This document shows positions 15,512-62,418 of a stretch of 64,000 nt of DNA, piece after piece (position 1 is the first letter of the stretch; each line of letters starts with the position of its first letter). Made by a program: the position numbers and the translations under genes. The DNA comes from Bhargavaea sp. CC-171006. Its GTDB lineage: Bacteria > Bacillota > Bacilli > Bacillales_A > Planococcaceae. The stretch covers positions 62,001-126,000 of the forward strand of contig NZ_QUZH01000014.1 in assembly GCF_009761675.1 (NCBI RefSeq), written 5' to 3'. Below the pieces are notes generated by a model. It was not told where the DNA came from. It worked only from the letters and a program-made list of their open reading frames with translations, and searched no databases.

Positions 15512-15686
15512 ATCTTTTCTTATCAAGAGAGACCGAGGGACAGGCCCTAGGACGTCTCGGCAGCGGACCCCATTCATTGGCGGCACCGTGCTAATTCCTG
15601 CAGATGCCTCGCGCATCTGGAAGATGAGAAAAAGATGGCCTTGACCGGTCCTCTTTTTCTCTGCCATGAGATCAAGAGGATTTTTT
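15512..15686 (+). promoter_or_regulatory. SAM-I riboswitch (S-box) with intrinsic terminator
   Basis: The leader shows the S-box hallmarks TTATCAAGAGAGACCGAGGGA, given here in part as CAAGAGAGACCGAGGGAC. It also has GGCCCTAGGACGTCTCGGCA, CGGCACCGTGCTAATTCC and a closing ATCTGGAAGATGAGA. P1 pairs about 15512-15525 with 15623-15636. A terminator (CCTCTT/AAGAGG at 15650-15655 and 15674-15679, inner TCTC/GAGA, then TTTTTT) precedes the metN start. SAM binding is expected to favour termination and so repress methionine uptake. Confidence 0.93.
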
Positions 15687-24847: not shown

Positions 24848-25522
24848 TTATTTGGCCGCTACGGCTTCCTTTTCTTCGCAGCGATCATCTTCTTCGATCT
24901 CCAGCACCTCAACTTCATCAATCTGGTCGAGGAGGCGGAGAAGCCGGCGGCGGTTGATCGTACGGCCAGCCTTTCTCAATTCAAGCAGAATCCAGTCCGG
25001 ATCAAGCACATCTTCCTGTTCCATCAGGTGGCGGATCAGGGCGATATCCTCGCGGTCGCGTTCGGACAGCTTGTTTTCCGGCCGGTTCACGTAGTTGTAG
25101 TAGCCGCTCTCTGACACATCAAGCGTCAGGCAGAGCCGGCGCACCTTGTGCTCATCCTTCATCTCGTGGATCGCATCGAAGCGCTCGGTCTTTTTGATGT
25201 CGACCATGGACGTGAATTTTTTCAGGATTTCATTTTCCTCGCGCAGCCGGCGCACTTCGCGCTCCAGGTCGCGGAGTCGGCGGTTCGGGTCGATACCCGG
25301 GGATTTTGGCTGGCGGCCGCGTTTTTTCGGGATGAGGCCCTCCTCGCCGGATTCCTCGTAGGCATCTAGCCAGTTTTTAAGCGTATTTGGGTGGACGCCG
25401 AATTCACGGGCGACCGCTCCCTTTTTCCGCTTCTTTTCAAGGACTTCACTCACCGCCCGGAGCCTTTCCTCAAAAGTTTTTTGTGGTTTGGCTTCTTTGT
25501 CTTCAATCACGTTAGCCGCCAT
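24848..25522 (-). CDS. IS3 transposase-derived helix-turn-helix protein lacking the catalytic core
   Basis: A 224-residue protein. Residues 15-75 are an IS3 OrfA-type helix-turn-helix (GAVAREFGVHPNTLKNWLDAY) and 80-105 a leucine-zipper-like coil (RRLREENEILKKF). Residues 112-200 match the N-terminal HTH_21 part of OrfB (MKDEHKVRRLCLTLDVSESG, then YYNYVNRP). The DDE integrase core that should follow is absent; the protein ends in an acidic tail (EVEVLEIEEDD). OrfA and OrfB parts are in one frame without the usual -1 slippage. No terminal inverted repeats were seen. The start is the ATG at 25522 after AAGGGGGAG. It looks like a domesticated DNA-binding protein. Confidence 0.75.
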   Translation of the reverse strand: MAANVIEDKEAKPQKTFEERLRAVSEVLEKKRKKGAVAREFGVHPNTLKNWLDAYEESGEEGLIPKKRGRQPKSPGIDPNRRLRDLEREVRRLREENEILKKFTSMVDIKKTERFDAIHEMKDEHKVRRLCLTLDVSESGYYNYVNRPENKLSERDREDIALIRHLMEQEDVLDPDWILLELRKAGRTINRRRLLRLLDQIDEVEVLEIEEDDRCEEKEAVAAK

Positions 25523-29784: not shown

Positions 29785-29970
29785 CTCTCAACCCCCGAAG
29801 AAAGTGTCGCTCATCGATGGGCAGGCAGGTCTACTGGCTCGCGCTTCTTTCTCCCGCCGGCCTTCCCGCAGCATGGCTGCAGTGGCTTCTTTGGCGGTCG
29901 TCGGCGCTCACAGTTGCGGGGACAGCTCCGGCATTTTCCGGATTCCCTTTTAAACCGCGATCGGTACCAA
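29785..29970 (-). promoter_or_regulatory. cobalamin (adenosylcobalamin) riboswitch controlling class I ribonucleotide reductase
   Basis: Reading the minus strand, the conserved blocks occur in order: AAAAGGGAATCCGG, GAGCTGTCCCCGCAACTGTG, GCCACTGCAG, GGGAAGGCCGG and the B12 box AGCCAGTAGACCTGCC (plus strand 29824-29839). A closing region with GAGCGACACTTTC follows. These are the hallmark nucleotides of cobalamin riboswitches. The aptamer lies in the leader of the ribonucleotide reductase operon. With the downstream terminator it should shut the B12-independent enzyme off when coenzyme B12 is plentiful. Confidence 0.92.
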
Positions 29971-29980
29971 CCCATCGTTA

Positions 29981-30033
29981 CTACAATATATAGTGTTGTT
30001 AACGCTCATATAGCCTAACATATTGTGTTTCAA
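29981..30033 (-). promoter_or_regulatory. NrdR boxes and promoter of the ribonucleotide reductase operon
   Basis: On the minus strand ACACTATATATTGTAG (29981-29996) fits the NrdR consensus, and ACACAATATGTTAG (30015-30028) is a close second. Their GTGT ends are 32 bp apart, about three helical turns, the usual NrdR arrangement. TTGAAA (30028-30033) and TATGAG (30005-30010) with a 17-bp spacer form a possible promoter, so one box overlaps the promoter and the other lies just downstream. Confidence 0.8.
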
Positions 30034-31346: not shown

Positions 31347-31401
31347 CGACATTTGCCCCCCTTTTCTATTTCTTTGTCTCTTACTATCATACATTATTTT
31401 C

Positions 31402-36597: not shown

Positions 36598-36735
36598 AAA
36601 AAAGCCCGGGAGTATGCTGATCCGACAGCATCTCCCAGGCTTTTGTCCTTCCGTGGCACGGCAACATCGCCGTGAGCCCCCTCTCGGACCAGGCCAGCGC
36701 ACTCGGCACCGCGGAACCCTAGGGGACATTTCGTA
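36598..36735 (-). promoter_or_regulatory. guanidine-I (ykkC) riboswitch with terminator
   Basis: On the minus strand the ykkC hallmarks occur in order: CTAGGGTTCCGCGG, GGTCCGAGAGG, CTCACGGC, GCCACGGAAGGAC and AAAAGCCTGGGAGA. The 3' part forms a terminator, AAAAGCCTGGGAG against CTCCCGGGCTTTTTT. Guanidinium should favour read-through into the SMR pair. Confidence 0.93.
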
Positions 36736-56748: not shown

Positions 56749-56892
56749 TTTCGTCATTCAACCATTTAATTTCGTCATTGGACGGAAAAGTTTCGTCATT
56801 CAGCTGCCTGATGGTGACGAATGACGAAATTGTAGTCGCGAATGATGAAATCGGGACATCGAATGACGAAATCCAGACCCCGAATGACGAAA
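56749..56892. repeat. repeat array E: 21-bp-period TTTCGTCATTC array, 3 forward + 4 reverse cores, inside the two-component operon
   Basis: Forward cores start at 56749, 56770 and 56791; reverse cores start at 56819, 56840 (GAATGATGAAA), 56861 and 56882. Steps are 21 bp with a 28-bp orientation switch, identical to arrays A and B. It occupies the 225-bp gap between regulator and kinase genes, which are normally contiguous. Confidence 0.93.
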
Positions 56893-56921
56893 CCGGGCCT
56901 CTTCGCCCGCTCATCCCCACT

Positions 56922-57605: not shown

Positions 57606-57695
57606 CGCGCAGTCCTCCCTTTTCCATCAGTTTACCGGAAAACTCCGGAAAATTTGAATAAACATGAATAACTCTCAGACAAACGGGTACCATAT

Positions 57696-57773
57696 GAGCA
57701 ACCCCACTTCTCTATTTCCCCCTTTTAGAGAATGCAGGTCCTGGCCCGCCGGCGATGTCGGCGGGCATTTTTT
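57696..57773 (+). ncRNA. candidate small RNA, copy 1 of 3, with sigma-B-like promoter
   Basis: Promoter: GAATAA (57666-57671), 13 bp, GGGTAC (57685-57690), close to sigma-B GTTTAA/GGGTAT. The transcript would start near 57696. It contains AACCCCACTTC, a hairpin TTCTCTA/TAGAGAA (57708-57714 and 57726-57732) with loop TTTCCCCCTTT, then GCAGGTCCTGG. The terminator is CCCGCCG/CGGCGGG followed by TTTTTT (ending 57773), giving about 78 nt. The C-rich loop is complementary to G-rich Shine-Dalgarno sequences. Confidence 0.7.
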
Positions 57774-57867
57774 GTGTTCGATAAAAAGAAGTAATGTTGC
57801 CACTTCTCTTTCTTTTATCCAAAGGCTTGCCAAGCAAAGAGGAATAGATTACACTTCAATACACAGT

Positions 57868-57884
57868 TATATTAAGTAACTTAA
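57868..57884 (+). promoter_or_regulatory. candidate promoter and operator of the doxX-type gene
   Basis: TATATT (57868-57873) may be a -10 element; it overlaps the palindrome TTAAGT-A-ACTTAA (57872-57884). MarR/DUF24-type repressors of quinone and oxidative stress often use such sites at DoxX-type genes. No good -35 is seen. Confidence 0.35.
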
Positions 57885-57908
57885 AAACAAAAGGAGAGTT
57901 GTTTAGAT

Positions 57909-58307
57909 ATGAACAAGAACGATATCGCAAAAGTCATTTTGAGGGTCATCCTCGGTTTTACTTTCTTCATTCACGGACTGGTTAAGTTCCAGGGGGGCAT
58001 TGCCAATACTGCAGGATACTTTGACAGCCTCGGCATCCCGGGATTCATGGCATATGTCGTTGCCACTATTGAGCTTTTGGGCGGTTTGGCCATGATTCTT
58101 GGGATCGGAACAAAAATTGTCGGCATTCTTTTCGCCATCATCATGGTCGGTGCCATCTTTACCGCAAAGCTTTCGCTCGGCTTCCTGGGCGATGGACAGA
58201 TGGCGGGCTACGAACTGGATCTGATCCTGCTTGCAGCTTCCCTGTACTTTGTGCTCGCCGACCGTTCGGTTCTGTCGATTGACCATAAACTTGCCCAAAA
58301 AGGATAA
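57909..58307 (+). CDS. DoxX family membrane protein
   Basis: A 132-residue protein with four spans and the DoxX hallmarks ILRVILGFTFFIHGLVKFQGG at the start (shown in part) and LGIPGFMAYVVATIELLGGL. Family members take part in quinone, thiol or oxidative-stress responses. AAAGGAGAG lies about 12 bases before the ATG, a slightly long spacing. The gene is flanked on both sides by copies of the candidate small RNA. Confidence 0.88.
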   Translation: MNKNDIAKVILRVILGFTFFIHGLVKFQGGIANTAGYFDSLGIPGFMAYVVATIELLGGLAMILGIGTKIVGILFAIIMVGAIFTAKLSLGFLGDGQMAGYELDLILLAASLYFVLADRSVLSIDHKLAQKG

Positions 58308-58345
58308 TTGTACGATTACTTTTCCTATTAACCGGGTACACTATT

Positions 58346-58422
58346 TCCAACCCCACTTCTCTATTTCCCCCTTTAGAGAAAGCAGGTCCTGGCCCGCCGG
58401 CGATGTCGGCGGGAATTTTTTT
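58346..58422 (+). ncRNA. candidate small RNA, copy 2 of 3, with sigma-B-like promoter
   Basis: Promoter: GATTAC (58314-58319), 14 bp, GGGTAC (58334-58339). The transcript would start near 58346. It has CAACCCCACTTC, the same 7-bp hairpin TTCTCTA/TAGAGAA (58357-58363 and 58374-58380) with loop TTTCCCCCTT, then GCAGGTCCTGG. The terminator is the same CCCGCCG/CGGCGGG with seven T (ending 58422). It begins in the tail of the DoxX gene and ends about 100 bp before copy 3. Confidence 0.7.
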
Positions 58423-58522
58423 ATGGAAAGACGTGCGGAACCCCTTCTCCCCCGGGCGGGACGAAAACCATCAGGAAATTTGCTTCTTTATGATTAAAAT
58501 CCGACGGACCGGGTATCCTATG

Positions 58523-58599
58523 ACCAGCCCCACTTCTCTATTTCCCCCTTTTAGAGAATGCAGGTTTTTGATCCGCCCGGTTGTCGGCGGATCTTTTTT
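58523..58599 (+). ncRNA. candidate small RNA, copy 3 of 3, with sigma-B-like promoter
   Basis: Promoter: GATTAA (58492-58497), 13 bp, GGGTAT (58511-58516), the best sigma-B match of the three. The RNA has CAGCCCCACTTC and hairpin TTCTCTA/TAGAGAA (58534-58540 and 58552-58558) with loop TTTCCCCCTTT. It has a different terminator stem, GATCCGCC/GGCGGATC, then TTTTTT. The 5' part is conserved while the terminator has diverged with compensating changes, which supports selection on the hairpin. Confidence 0.72.
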
Positions 58600-61842: not shown

Positions 61843-62418
61843 TCAGTCTTCGTCTTTTTCAAAGTCGATGATGTTGCCGTTTTCTGCGTCAATGTCGACC
61901 TCGTATTCGAACTTGTCATCACGGAGTTCCACTTCATAGTTCCAGCGGCCGTCGTCTTCATCGAGTTCAGCTTCAATGACTTCAGCTCCAGAGCCGGCCT
62001 TGCCTTTTGCGATCTTGATCGCTTCATTCTCCGAAATCAGGTTGTCCGGTGCCGCTTGGCGGTCGTCGTCATCACGGTCGTCTTGGTCATCATCCTGGTC
62101 ATCCTGTTCGGTCTTCAAGACCTTCCCGGATTTCGCATCAATCTTGACCTCTACTTCGCCTGACTCGCCGCGGATTTCGAACTCATACTCTTGATCGTCA
62201 CGATCCAGTTCCATCTCGCGGACTTCCCCGCCGCCAGCCGCTTCTAGCGCGATCGACTGTGCCTCATCCTCCGAAATCCAATCCGATGCAACCTGCTTTA
62301 CTTTCGCCGCAGCCGTTTCGACCGGCGCGAGTTTCCCTGTGTCTTCTGCAAAAGCCGCCATGCCTCCGATTGTCAGAACCCCTGCTGCGACCGGTGCAAT
62401 AAACCAACGTTTTTTCAT
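61843..62418 (-). CDS. secreted PepSY domain protein
   Basis: A 191-residue exported protein with a signal peptide (RWFIAPVAAGVLTIGGMAAFA) and two PepSY domains. The first spans about 47-105 (ISEDEAQSIALEAAGGG ... VKIDAKSGKVL). The second spans about 125-190 (ISENEAIKIAKGKAGSG ... VDIDAENGNII). They are joined by a strongly acidic D/Q-rich linker. PepSY domains are thought to inhibit or fold proteases. AGGAGG precedes the ATG. It is a single-gene unit. Confidence 0.88.
   Translation of the reverse strand: MKKRWFIAPVAAGVLTIGGMAAFAEDTGKLAPVETAAAKVKQVASDWISEDEAQSIALEAAGGGEVREMELDRDDQEYEFEIRGESGEVEVKIDAKSGKVLKTEQDDQDDDQDDRDDDDRQAAPDNLISENEAIKIAKGKAGSGAEVIEAELDEDDGRWNYEVELRDDKFEYEVDIDAENGNIIDFEKDED

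Follow-up and report, generated by a model that had tools for sequence, protein, structure and literature searches.

What kind of element is repeated three times around the DoxX gene of Bhargavaea sp. CC-171006, and what could its function be? The window, i.e., the whole stretch of DNA analysed, is 64,000 nt long and covers positions 62,001 to 126,000 of contig NZ_QUZH01000014.1 on the forward strand. The three units are likely to be small-RNA genes of about 77 nt that are transcribed by SigB, probably act as repressors at Shine-Dalgarno sequences, and are genus-specific paralogues of another small RNA, designated here as X. According to the proposed mechanism, SigB, the general-stress sigma factor, would transcribe the three RNAs, and each of them would present UUUCCCCCUU in a hairpin loop. 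The loop would pair with G-rich Shine-Dalgarno sequences, and translation would probably be repressed in this way. X is C-rich, family-wide, and almost invariant, and a few small insertions in the copies, as compared with X, would have given rise to the hairpin.

Three units around the DoxX gene

The units are located on the forward strand at 57666-57773, 58314-58422, and 58492-58599, as determined by direct reading and alignment, which is the three-unit layout and the position proposed in the earlier note. In all three, the order of elements is a -35-like hexamer, a -10-like hexamer, the leader CCCCACTTC, a hairpin, GCAGGT, and a terminator. The hairpin with stem TTCTCTA/TAGAGAA and a C-rich loop displaying UUUCCCCCUU(U) is common to all copies, as the same note had stated, and the single loop with UCCC in each copy is accompanied by a CCCC run in its leader. 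The individual features are as follows:

57666-57690, + strand: promoter of copy 1, GAATAA-N13-GGGTAC, SigB-type; rank 162 of 127,928 in the promoter model
57697-57773, + strand: copy 1 small RNA (predicted), 5' end placed about 7 nt past GGGTAC; strong covariance-model match
57708-57732, + strand: hairpin TTCTCTA/TAGAGAA of copy 1, loop TTTCCCCCTTT; core search and folding
57744-57773, + strand: intrinsic terminator of copy 1; sequence and folding
57909-58307, + strand: DoxX gene, between copies 1 and 2; Pfam PF07681, tblastn
58314-58339, + strand: promoter of copy 2, GATTAC-N14-GGGTAC, SigB-type, weakest of the three; rank 327 of 127,928
58346-58422, + strand: copy 2 small RNA (predicted), with a putative 5' end; covariance-model match
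58357-58380, + strand: hairpin of copy 2, loop TTTCCCCCTT, one base shorter; sequence and folding
58393-58422, + strand: intrinsic terminator of copy 2; sequence and folding
58492-58516, + strand: promoter of copy 3, GATTAA-N13-GGGTAT, SigB-type; rank 1 of 127,928, with the model trained without the copies
58523-58599, + strand: copy 3 small RNA (predicted), with a putative 5' end; strong covariance-model match
58534-58558, + strand: hairpin of copy 3, loop TTTCCCCCTTT; core search and folding
58570-58599, + strand: intrinsic terminator of copy 3, with a different stem; sequence and folding

A search with a 26-base core, allowing up to three mismatches, gave two matches in the window, as compared with none in 100 shuffles; copy 2 escapes this search because of a one-base deletion in its loop. 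The folding z-score against shuffled sequences is -3.2, each copy is more stable than its shuffles, and 0, 2, and 3 of 200 shuffles were equally stable for the three copies. The terminators of copies 1 and 2 are nearly identical, and that of copy 2 is, by eye, the first terminator downstream of DoxX. It had been claimed that each unit has its own terminator and that the stem of copy 3 differs yet pairs; the alignment agrees, and the letters of this stem also vary among species. Elsewhere in the window, three Rfam riboswitches were recognized above cut-off (SAM at 15517-15630, cobalamin at 29807-29986, and guanidine-I at 36630-36733), and short repeats like GAATGACGAAAT were seen by eye at about 56800-56900 between histidine kinase and response regulator genes.

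SigB (TIGR02941) is over the cut-off in all eight genomes of the genus sample (G000-G007), which consists of Bhargavaea and Edaphobacillus lindanitolerans (G002). Upstream of rsbV, GTTTRR or GTTTTA is followed in all eight by GGGTAA or GGGTAT, with 13 bases between them (14 in one genome); four of these promoters were found by pattern and four by eye. The SigB consensus used for comparison is the generally known one. All 18 copies in the genus have GGGTAN and a spacer of 13-14 bases, their hairpin core lies 17 or 19 bases past the -10, and GAATAA is the -35 hexamer in all six a-type copies. Every one of the 18 copies has A instead of T as the second base of its -35, so that GA stands where GTTTAA has GT. 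A two-hexamer promoter model, trained without the copies on the eight rsbV promoters and on 20 promoters of X in other genera, was applied to all 127,928 positions of the two window strands and gave the ranks listed above. A strict promoter pattern (13-base spacer, GGGTAM) recovered copy 1 only, with 0.05 matches expected and at least one match in 5 of 100 shuffles; copies 2 and 3 were missed because of the 14-base spacer and the final T, respectively. Of the sigma-B-like promoters claimed earlier, the SigB-type match stands, together with an encoded SigB and a similar rsbV promoter, while the GA in every -35 speaks against them. This GA is the weak point of the SigB-type assignment, as are the low ranks of copies 1 and 2. 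From the promoter sequences, we infer that the copies are under SigB control.

The family sample comprises 261 genomes, i.e., the eight genus genomes and 253 others, and the family is presumably Planococcaceae. BLAST in 61 genomes revealed the RNA of the copies in eight, all from the same genus. A one-mismatch pattern matched 8/8 genus genomes and 6/253 other family genomes (8 places); one locus was read in each of these six, and none was related. The covariance model gave 18 strong matches in the 261 genomes (E below 1e-11), distributed as 3, 2, 1, 2, 1, 3, 3, and 3 copies in G000 to G007, respectively. The best match in another genus (E 0.0017) is coding by eye, and weak matches occurred in 34 other family genomes, where none of 22 loci read had the promoter-hairpin-terminator layout. 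In a search of named contigs, 7 of 19 matching stretches belong to Bhargavaea or Edaphobacillus, and the remaining 12, which are from unrelated taxa by title, were taken as chance. With matches judged by locus reading or title, the BLAST, pattern, and covariance searches revealed no copy in the other genera of the family. A multicopy small-RNA family conserved outside the strain had been suggested, with a covariance search as the check; in that search the seven other genus genomes all carry the RNA, so that 18 copies are kept across species in 8/8 genomes. Covariation support for the 5' stem is absent among the genus copies because the stem hardly varies; one pair is lost in copy c of G001.

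DoxX lies between copies 1 and 2 in four of the eight genus genomes, and these are exactly the three-copy genomes (tblastn). G003 is without DoxX and has a copy with the upstream side of copy 1 (by eye) and the downstream side of copy 2; in comparison with the four three-copy genomes, this downstream side scores 48.0-51.5 with the b flanks vs. 4.5-9.5 with the a flanks. The flanks in G001 fit weakly, with 13.0-21.0 against b and 0.5-8.0 against a. The joined flanks in G003 indicate that recombination between the RNA repeats probably removed DoxX or possibly brought it in. With this probable recombination and its presence in half of the genomes, DoxX is thus an optional neighbour and no fixed partner.

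Small RNA X and its relation to the copies

X was reached by a search of the genus for the complement of the loop before ATG. One such site was present in 8/8 genomes with no long gene behind it, and its opposite strand carries TGAACACAGCAACATTCTCATTTCCCCCTTT followed by a terminator. The layout of X in the genus is GTTTAR, 14 bases, GGNTAT, then TGAACACAGCAACATTCTCATTTCCCCCTTTA, and the terminator; in G000, it is situated on the minus strand of contig 23 at about 239790-239890 (L128 / L260). All 31 leader columns are invariant in the eight genus genomes. The terminator covaries: both partners have changed in 5 of 11 pairs, and 94.3% of cells are paired vs. at most 52.9% in slid controls. The -10 hexamer is GGATAT, GGTTAT, or GGCTAT, i.e., without GGG, in all eight.

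With up to three mismatches allowed, the 23-base core of X was found in 249 of the 261 genomes of the family sample, which represent 17 of 19 genera. As an additional weak site occurs in some genomes, chance may account for a few of these matches. The core is absent from all three g6 genomes and both g8 genomes. When the class was sampled evenly, a 26-base X core was present in 37/39 family genomes and 0/359 others. Five of ten extra sites were judged, and all but one are not X; the exception (L249, G109 contig 1, about 1492850) is a second X-like RNA with GTTTAA and no clear GGG -10. Among 22 aligned X loci from 14 genera, 19 have GTTTA, one GTTTT, and two GTATA. GGG is present in the -10 of 15 of these loci; the other seven, including both Bhargavaea loci, have, e.g., GGATAT, GGAAAT, or TGGAAT. 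X is upstream of a gene which we take to be 3-hydroxyisobutyrate-dehydrogenase-like in 11/15 loci (sequence motif), and a presumably YkvS-like gene is on its other side in 3/15; the misses may be due to truncation because the loci span 1.5-5 kb.

A model of promoter and leader, applied to 398 genomes of the class, matched 11 outside genomes, with one clear relative among them, G438. The family of G438 is a second family with X, in a divergent form: the X core with up to two mismatches is present in 33/43 genomes, and 19 of the 20 loci read there (37 places listed) have, by eye, a SigB-type promoter, a GCACAG-type leader, ACATTCTCATTTCCCCC, and a terminator. The exact 17-base X core was searched in another sample of the class and found in 1/270 outside genomes, which is again G438; ten outside genomes with a one-mismatch core were judged by eye as chance at the sites read. 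The other matches of the promoter and leader model were rejected as X. G334 keeps only the promoter and first letters, and at this locus (L292, contig 274) GGGGGAATAAT and GAACACAGCAACA are as in X and the C-rich part is missing. G352 and G535 have what looks like a leader that we take to be that of a SAM riboswitch, and the seven remaining matches are chance by eye.

The relation of the copies to X was recognized in a gapped alignment, made with the copy of G002 alone. One copy keeps the letters of the X-type leader ACAGCAACATTCTCATTTCCCCC with insertions, and the X sequence model has no copy matches. Against the leader of a g15 X, the G002 copy reads ACAGCAA[CCC]CA[C]TTCTC[T]ATTTCCCCCTTTTAGA[GAAT]GCAGG, where single brackets around CCC, C, T, and GAAT mark insertions in the copy; 35 of 35 X letters are matched, and insertions are in the copy only. 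Twelve X were aligned to this copy, and three of them show a substitution. When ATTTCCCCC was fixed and the rest shuffled, the score was reached by 0, 0, 0, and 2 of 2000 shuffles in tests with four X. The inserted bases extend the pairing to the seven-pair stem. Paralogy rests on gapped alignments because neither the copy model nor the X model detects the other's family. As the alignment to the X leader needs insertions only, the copies are probably paralogues of X in which a hairpin was built by insertions, and descent would have proceeded from X to the copies.

A broader reading, somewhat short of probable, is that X represents a core small RNA, as yet undescribed, of the SigB stress response in the whole family and in the second family of the class, with an almost invariant single-stranded leader of 31 bases. 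Its duplication in Bhargavaea, with small insertions, would have converted an open seed to a hairpin-loop seed, and stress control would be split between the old and new genes. Such a split would follow from the Bhargavaea X without GGG in the -10 (8/8) and the copies with GGGTA (18/18); it is the weakest part of this reading, since GGG is also missing from five of the 20 X loci in other genera. Should the reading hold, the core stress small RNA of a large bacterial family would approach the constancy of a housekeeping gene while having no match in Rfam 15, and the copies in the genus would show duplication and re-folding of a small RNA, largely by insertions, with the same seed in a new presentation. 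The question raised is which partner keeps the 31-base leader of X constant in about 249 of 261 sampled species.

Possible targets and alternative explanations

Shine-Dalgarno sites with G-runs in the window had been offered as evidence for targets. The sites are real according to gene calls: AAGGGGG precedes the genes starting at 25522, 47194, and 49575, and GGGGGG precedes a gene whose start was called at 31352 (31346 in the earlier note). The mean interaction of the loop is -11.1 kcal/mol with 61 start regions of the window vs. -6.4 kcal/mol with 57 gene interiors. As evidence for targets, these sites failed in the interaction test, since on the window start regions the loop was no better than shuffled loops, 15 of 50 of which did as well.

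The 10-base complement of the loop occurs 30 times in the genome, and four of these occurrences are the RNAs. At 25 of the 26 other sites, a start codon is 11-28 bases from the first base of the site, with a frame of at least 53 aa. A reversed control word is equally frequent (32 vs. 30), and these counts represent no enrichment because the control word also reads as a Shine-Dalgarno sequence. Pairing outside the seed at the 26 sites was not enriched in comparison with shuffled flanks, with a mean z of -0.20 for the copy and -0.15 for X. According to Pfam, the 25 proteins behind the sites include transporters, solute-binding proteins, thiolase, E1 dehydrogenase, and Spo0A. An outlier is the start region of a thiopeptide precursor (PF19409), which pairs with the copy at -41.3 kcal/mol; 7 of 8000 flank shuffles were as good, i.e., about 0.02 allowing for 26 sites. 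This region is kept in G005 and also in G003, where the ATG is missing. At locus L367 (G000 contig 11, 90300-96300), three similar thiopeptide-type precursors are in tandem (Pfam on one), and two blocks in the start region of one of them are complementary to the copies. For X, the best site among the 26 belongs to a 62-aa membrane-type protein (3/300 shuffles, not significant over 26 sites), and this site with the same spacer is present in 6/8 genus genomes. The start of the Spo0A gene (PF08769; L149, G000 contig 19, about 190870) is preceded by AAAAGGGGGAAAT, which matches the loop of the copies over a long stretch; 13/300 flank shuffles were as good. The target tests being negative overall, the ribosome-binding block predicted for the copies is drawn from their architecture and from RsaA and LhrC.

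It is unlikely that the copies, as real SigB-type small RNAs, have a C-rich seed convergent with that of X, both having been selected to match Shine-Dalgarno sequences. Such convergence would agree with the failure of each model to detect the other's family, with the four gaps needed for the alignment to X, and with the recurrence of C-rich UCCC motifs among small RNAs of low-GC Gram-positives (PMC4132741). The match, however, reaches beyond the seed (ACAGCAA, CA, TTCTC, AGA, GCAGG), few shuffles with the seed fixed reach the score as counted above, and both the copies and X mostly have SigB-type promoters. In a different way of working, the C-rich loop would sequester a global RNA-binding regulator or sponge another RNA, without a ribosome-binding block. 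C-rich loops in several copies could titrate a factor, target enrichment was not seen in the window duplex and flank-shuffle tests, and the 31-base leader of X is conserved well past a seed. We nevertheless regard sequestration or sponging as quite unlikely: 25 of the 26 non-sRNA sites complementary to the loop precede an open frame, though the control word is equally frequent, and RsaA (PMC3961350) and LhrC (PMC4132741) pair with mRNA.

The units could also be a small repeat that serves as a recombination substrate around DoxX and has no regulatory role. DoxX is between copies 1 and 2 only in the four genomes with three copies, and G003 joins the promoter side of copy 1 to the downstream flank of copy 2, as a recombining repeat would. 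A mere repeat is highly improbable, however, as the copies retain their promoter, leader, loop, and a terminator that pairs although the spacers differ, and the BLAST, pattern, and covariance searches gave no copy in other genera of the family. The reading as SigB-type small-RNA genes paralogous to X is preferred.

Comparison with known small RNAs

No Rfam 15 family reached the gathering score over the copies, X, or the form of X in the second family, in line with the earlier statement that the copies cannot be assigned to a named family. Bacillaceae-1 is above cut-off in L208, elsewhere in the locus than X. Sub-threshold scores, all of them far below the curated cut-offs, were 37.9 of 60 bits (terminator region of copy 3), 27.6 of 60 (X), 26.0 of 49.5, and 20.0 of 52; the sub-threshold families ncr1175, ncr1241, anti-hemB, and NmsRb are short RNAs with a terminator, some with a C-rich 5' part. 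Neither the core letters nor a small RNA from Bhargavaea was found in the open-access literature, nor was an X-like RNA in broader open-access searches, a scope outside which most subscription papers lie. On the basis of Rfam 15 and these literature searches, X is considered undescribed, and it is a more important find than the copies. The copies form a new family of a known kind, the SigB-type C-rich small RNAs; they are real and conserved, and their transcription, predicted from sequence features, is very probable.

RsaA, LhrC, and FsrA were compared with the copies by description. FsrA is controlled by Fur, and inspection by eye revealed no Fur box upstream of the copies or X. FsrA belongs to the iron-sparing response, and RoxS (RoxS/RsaE) is regulated by nitric oxide. 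A UCCC motif was shown to bind targets in FsrA and RsaE (PMC4132741). Listeria monocytogenes LhrC is represented by several homologous RNAs whose C-rich UCCC motifs hinder translation of a target; each RNA carries three redundant motifs, and the family is dependent on the two-component system LisRK (PMC4132741). Similarly to LhrC, the RNAs described here occur in several homologous copies with a UCCC-type motif, three in this genome and one to three in the other genus genomes. Unlike LhrC as described there, each has one UCCC-containing loop and a leader CCCC run instead of three motifs, and the promoters are SigB-type. The closest known system by the way of working predicted here is RsaA of Staphylococcus aureus, which is SigB-dependent, masks a Shine-Dalgarno sequence with an unpaired C-rich motif, and also requires a loop-loop contact with its target (PMC3961350).
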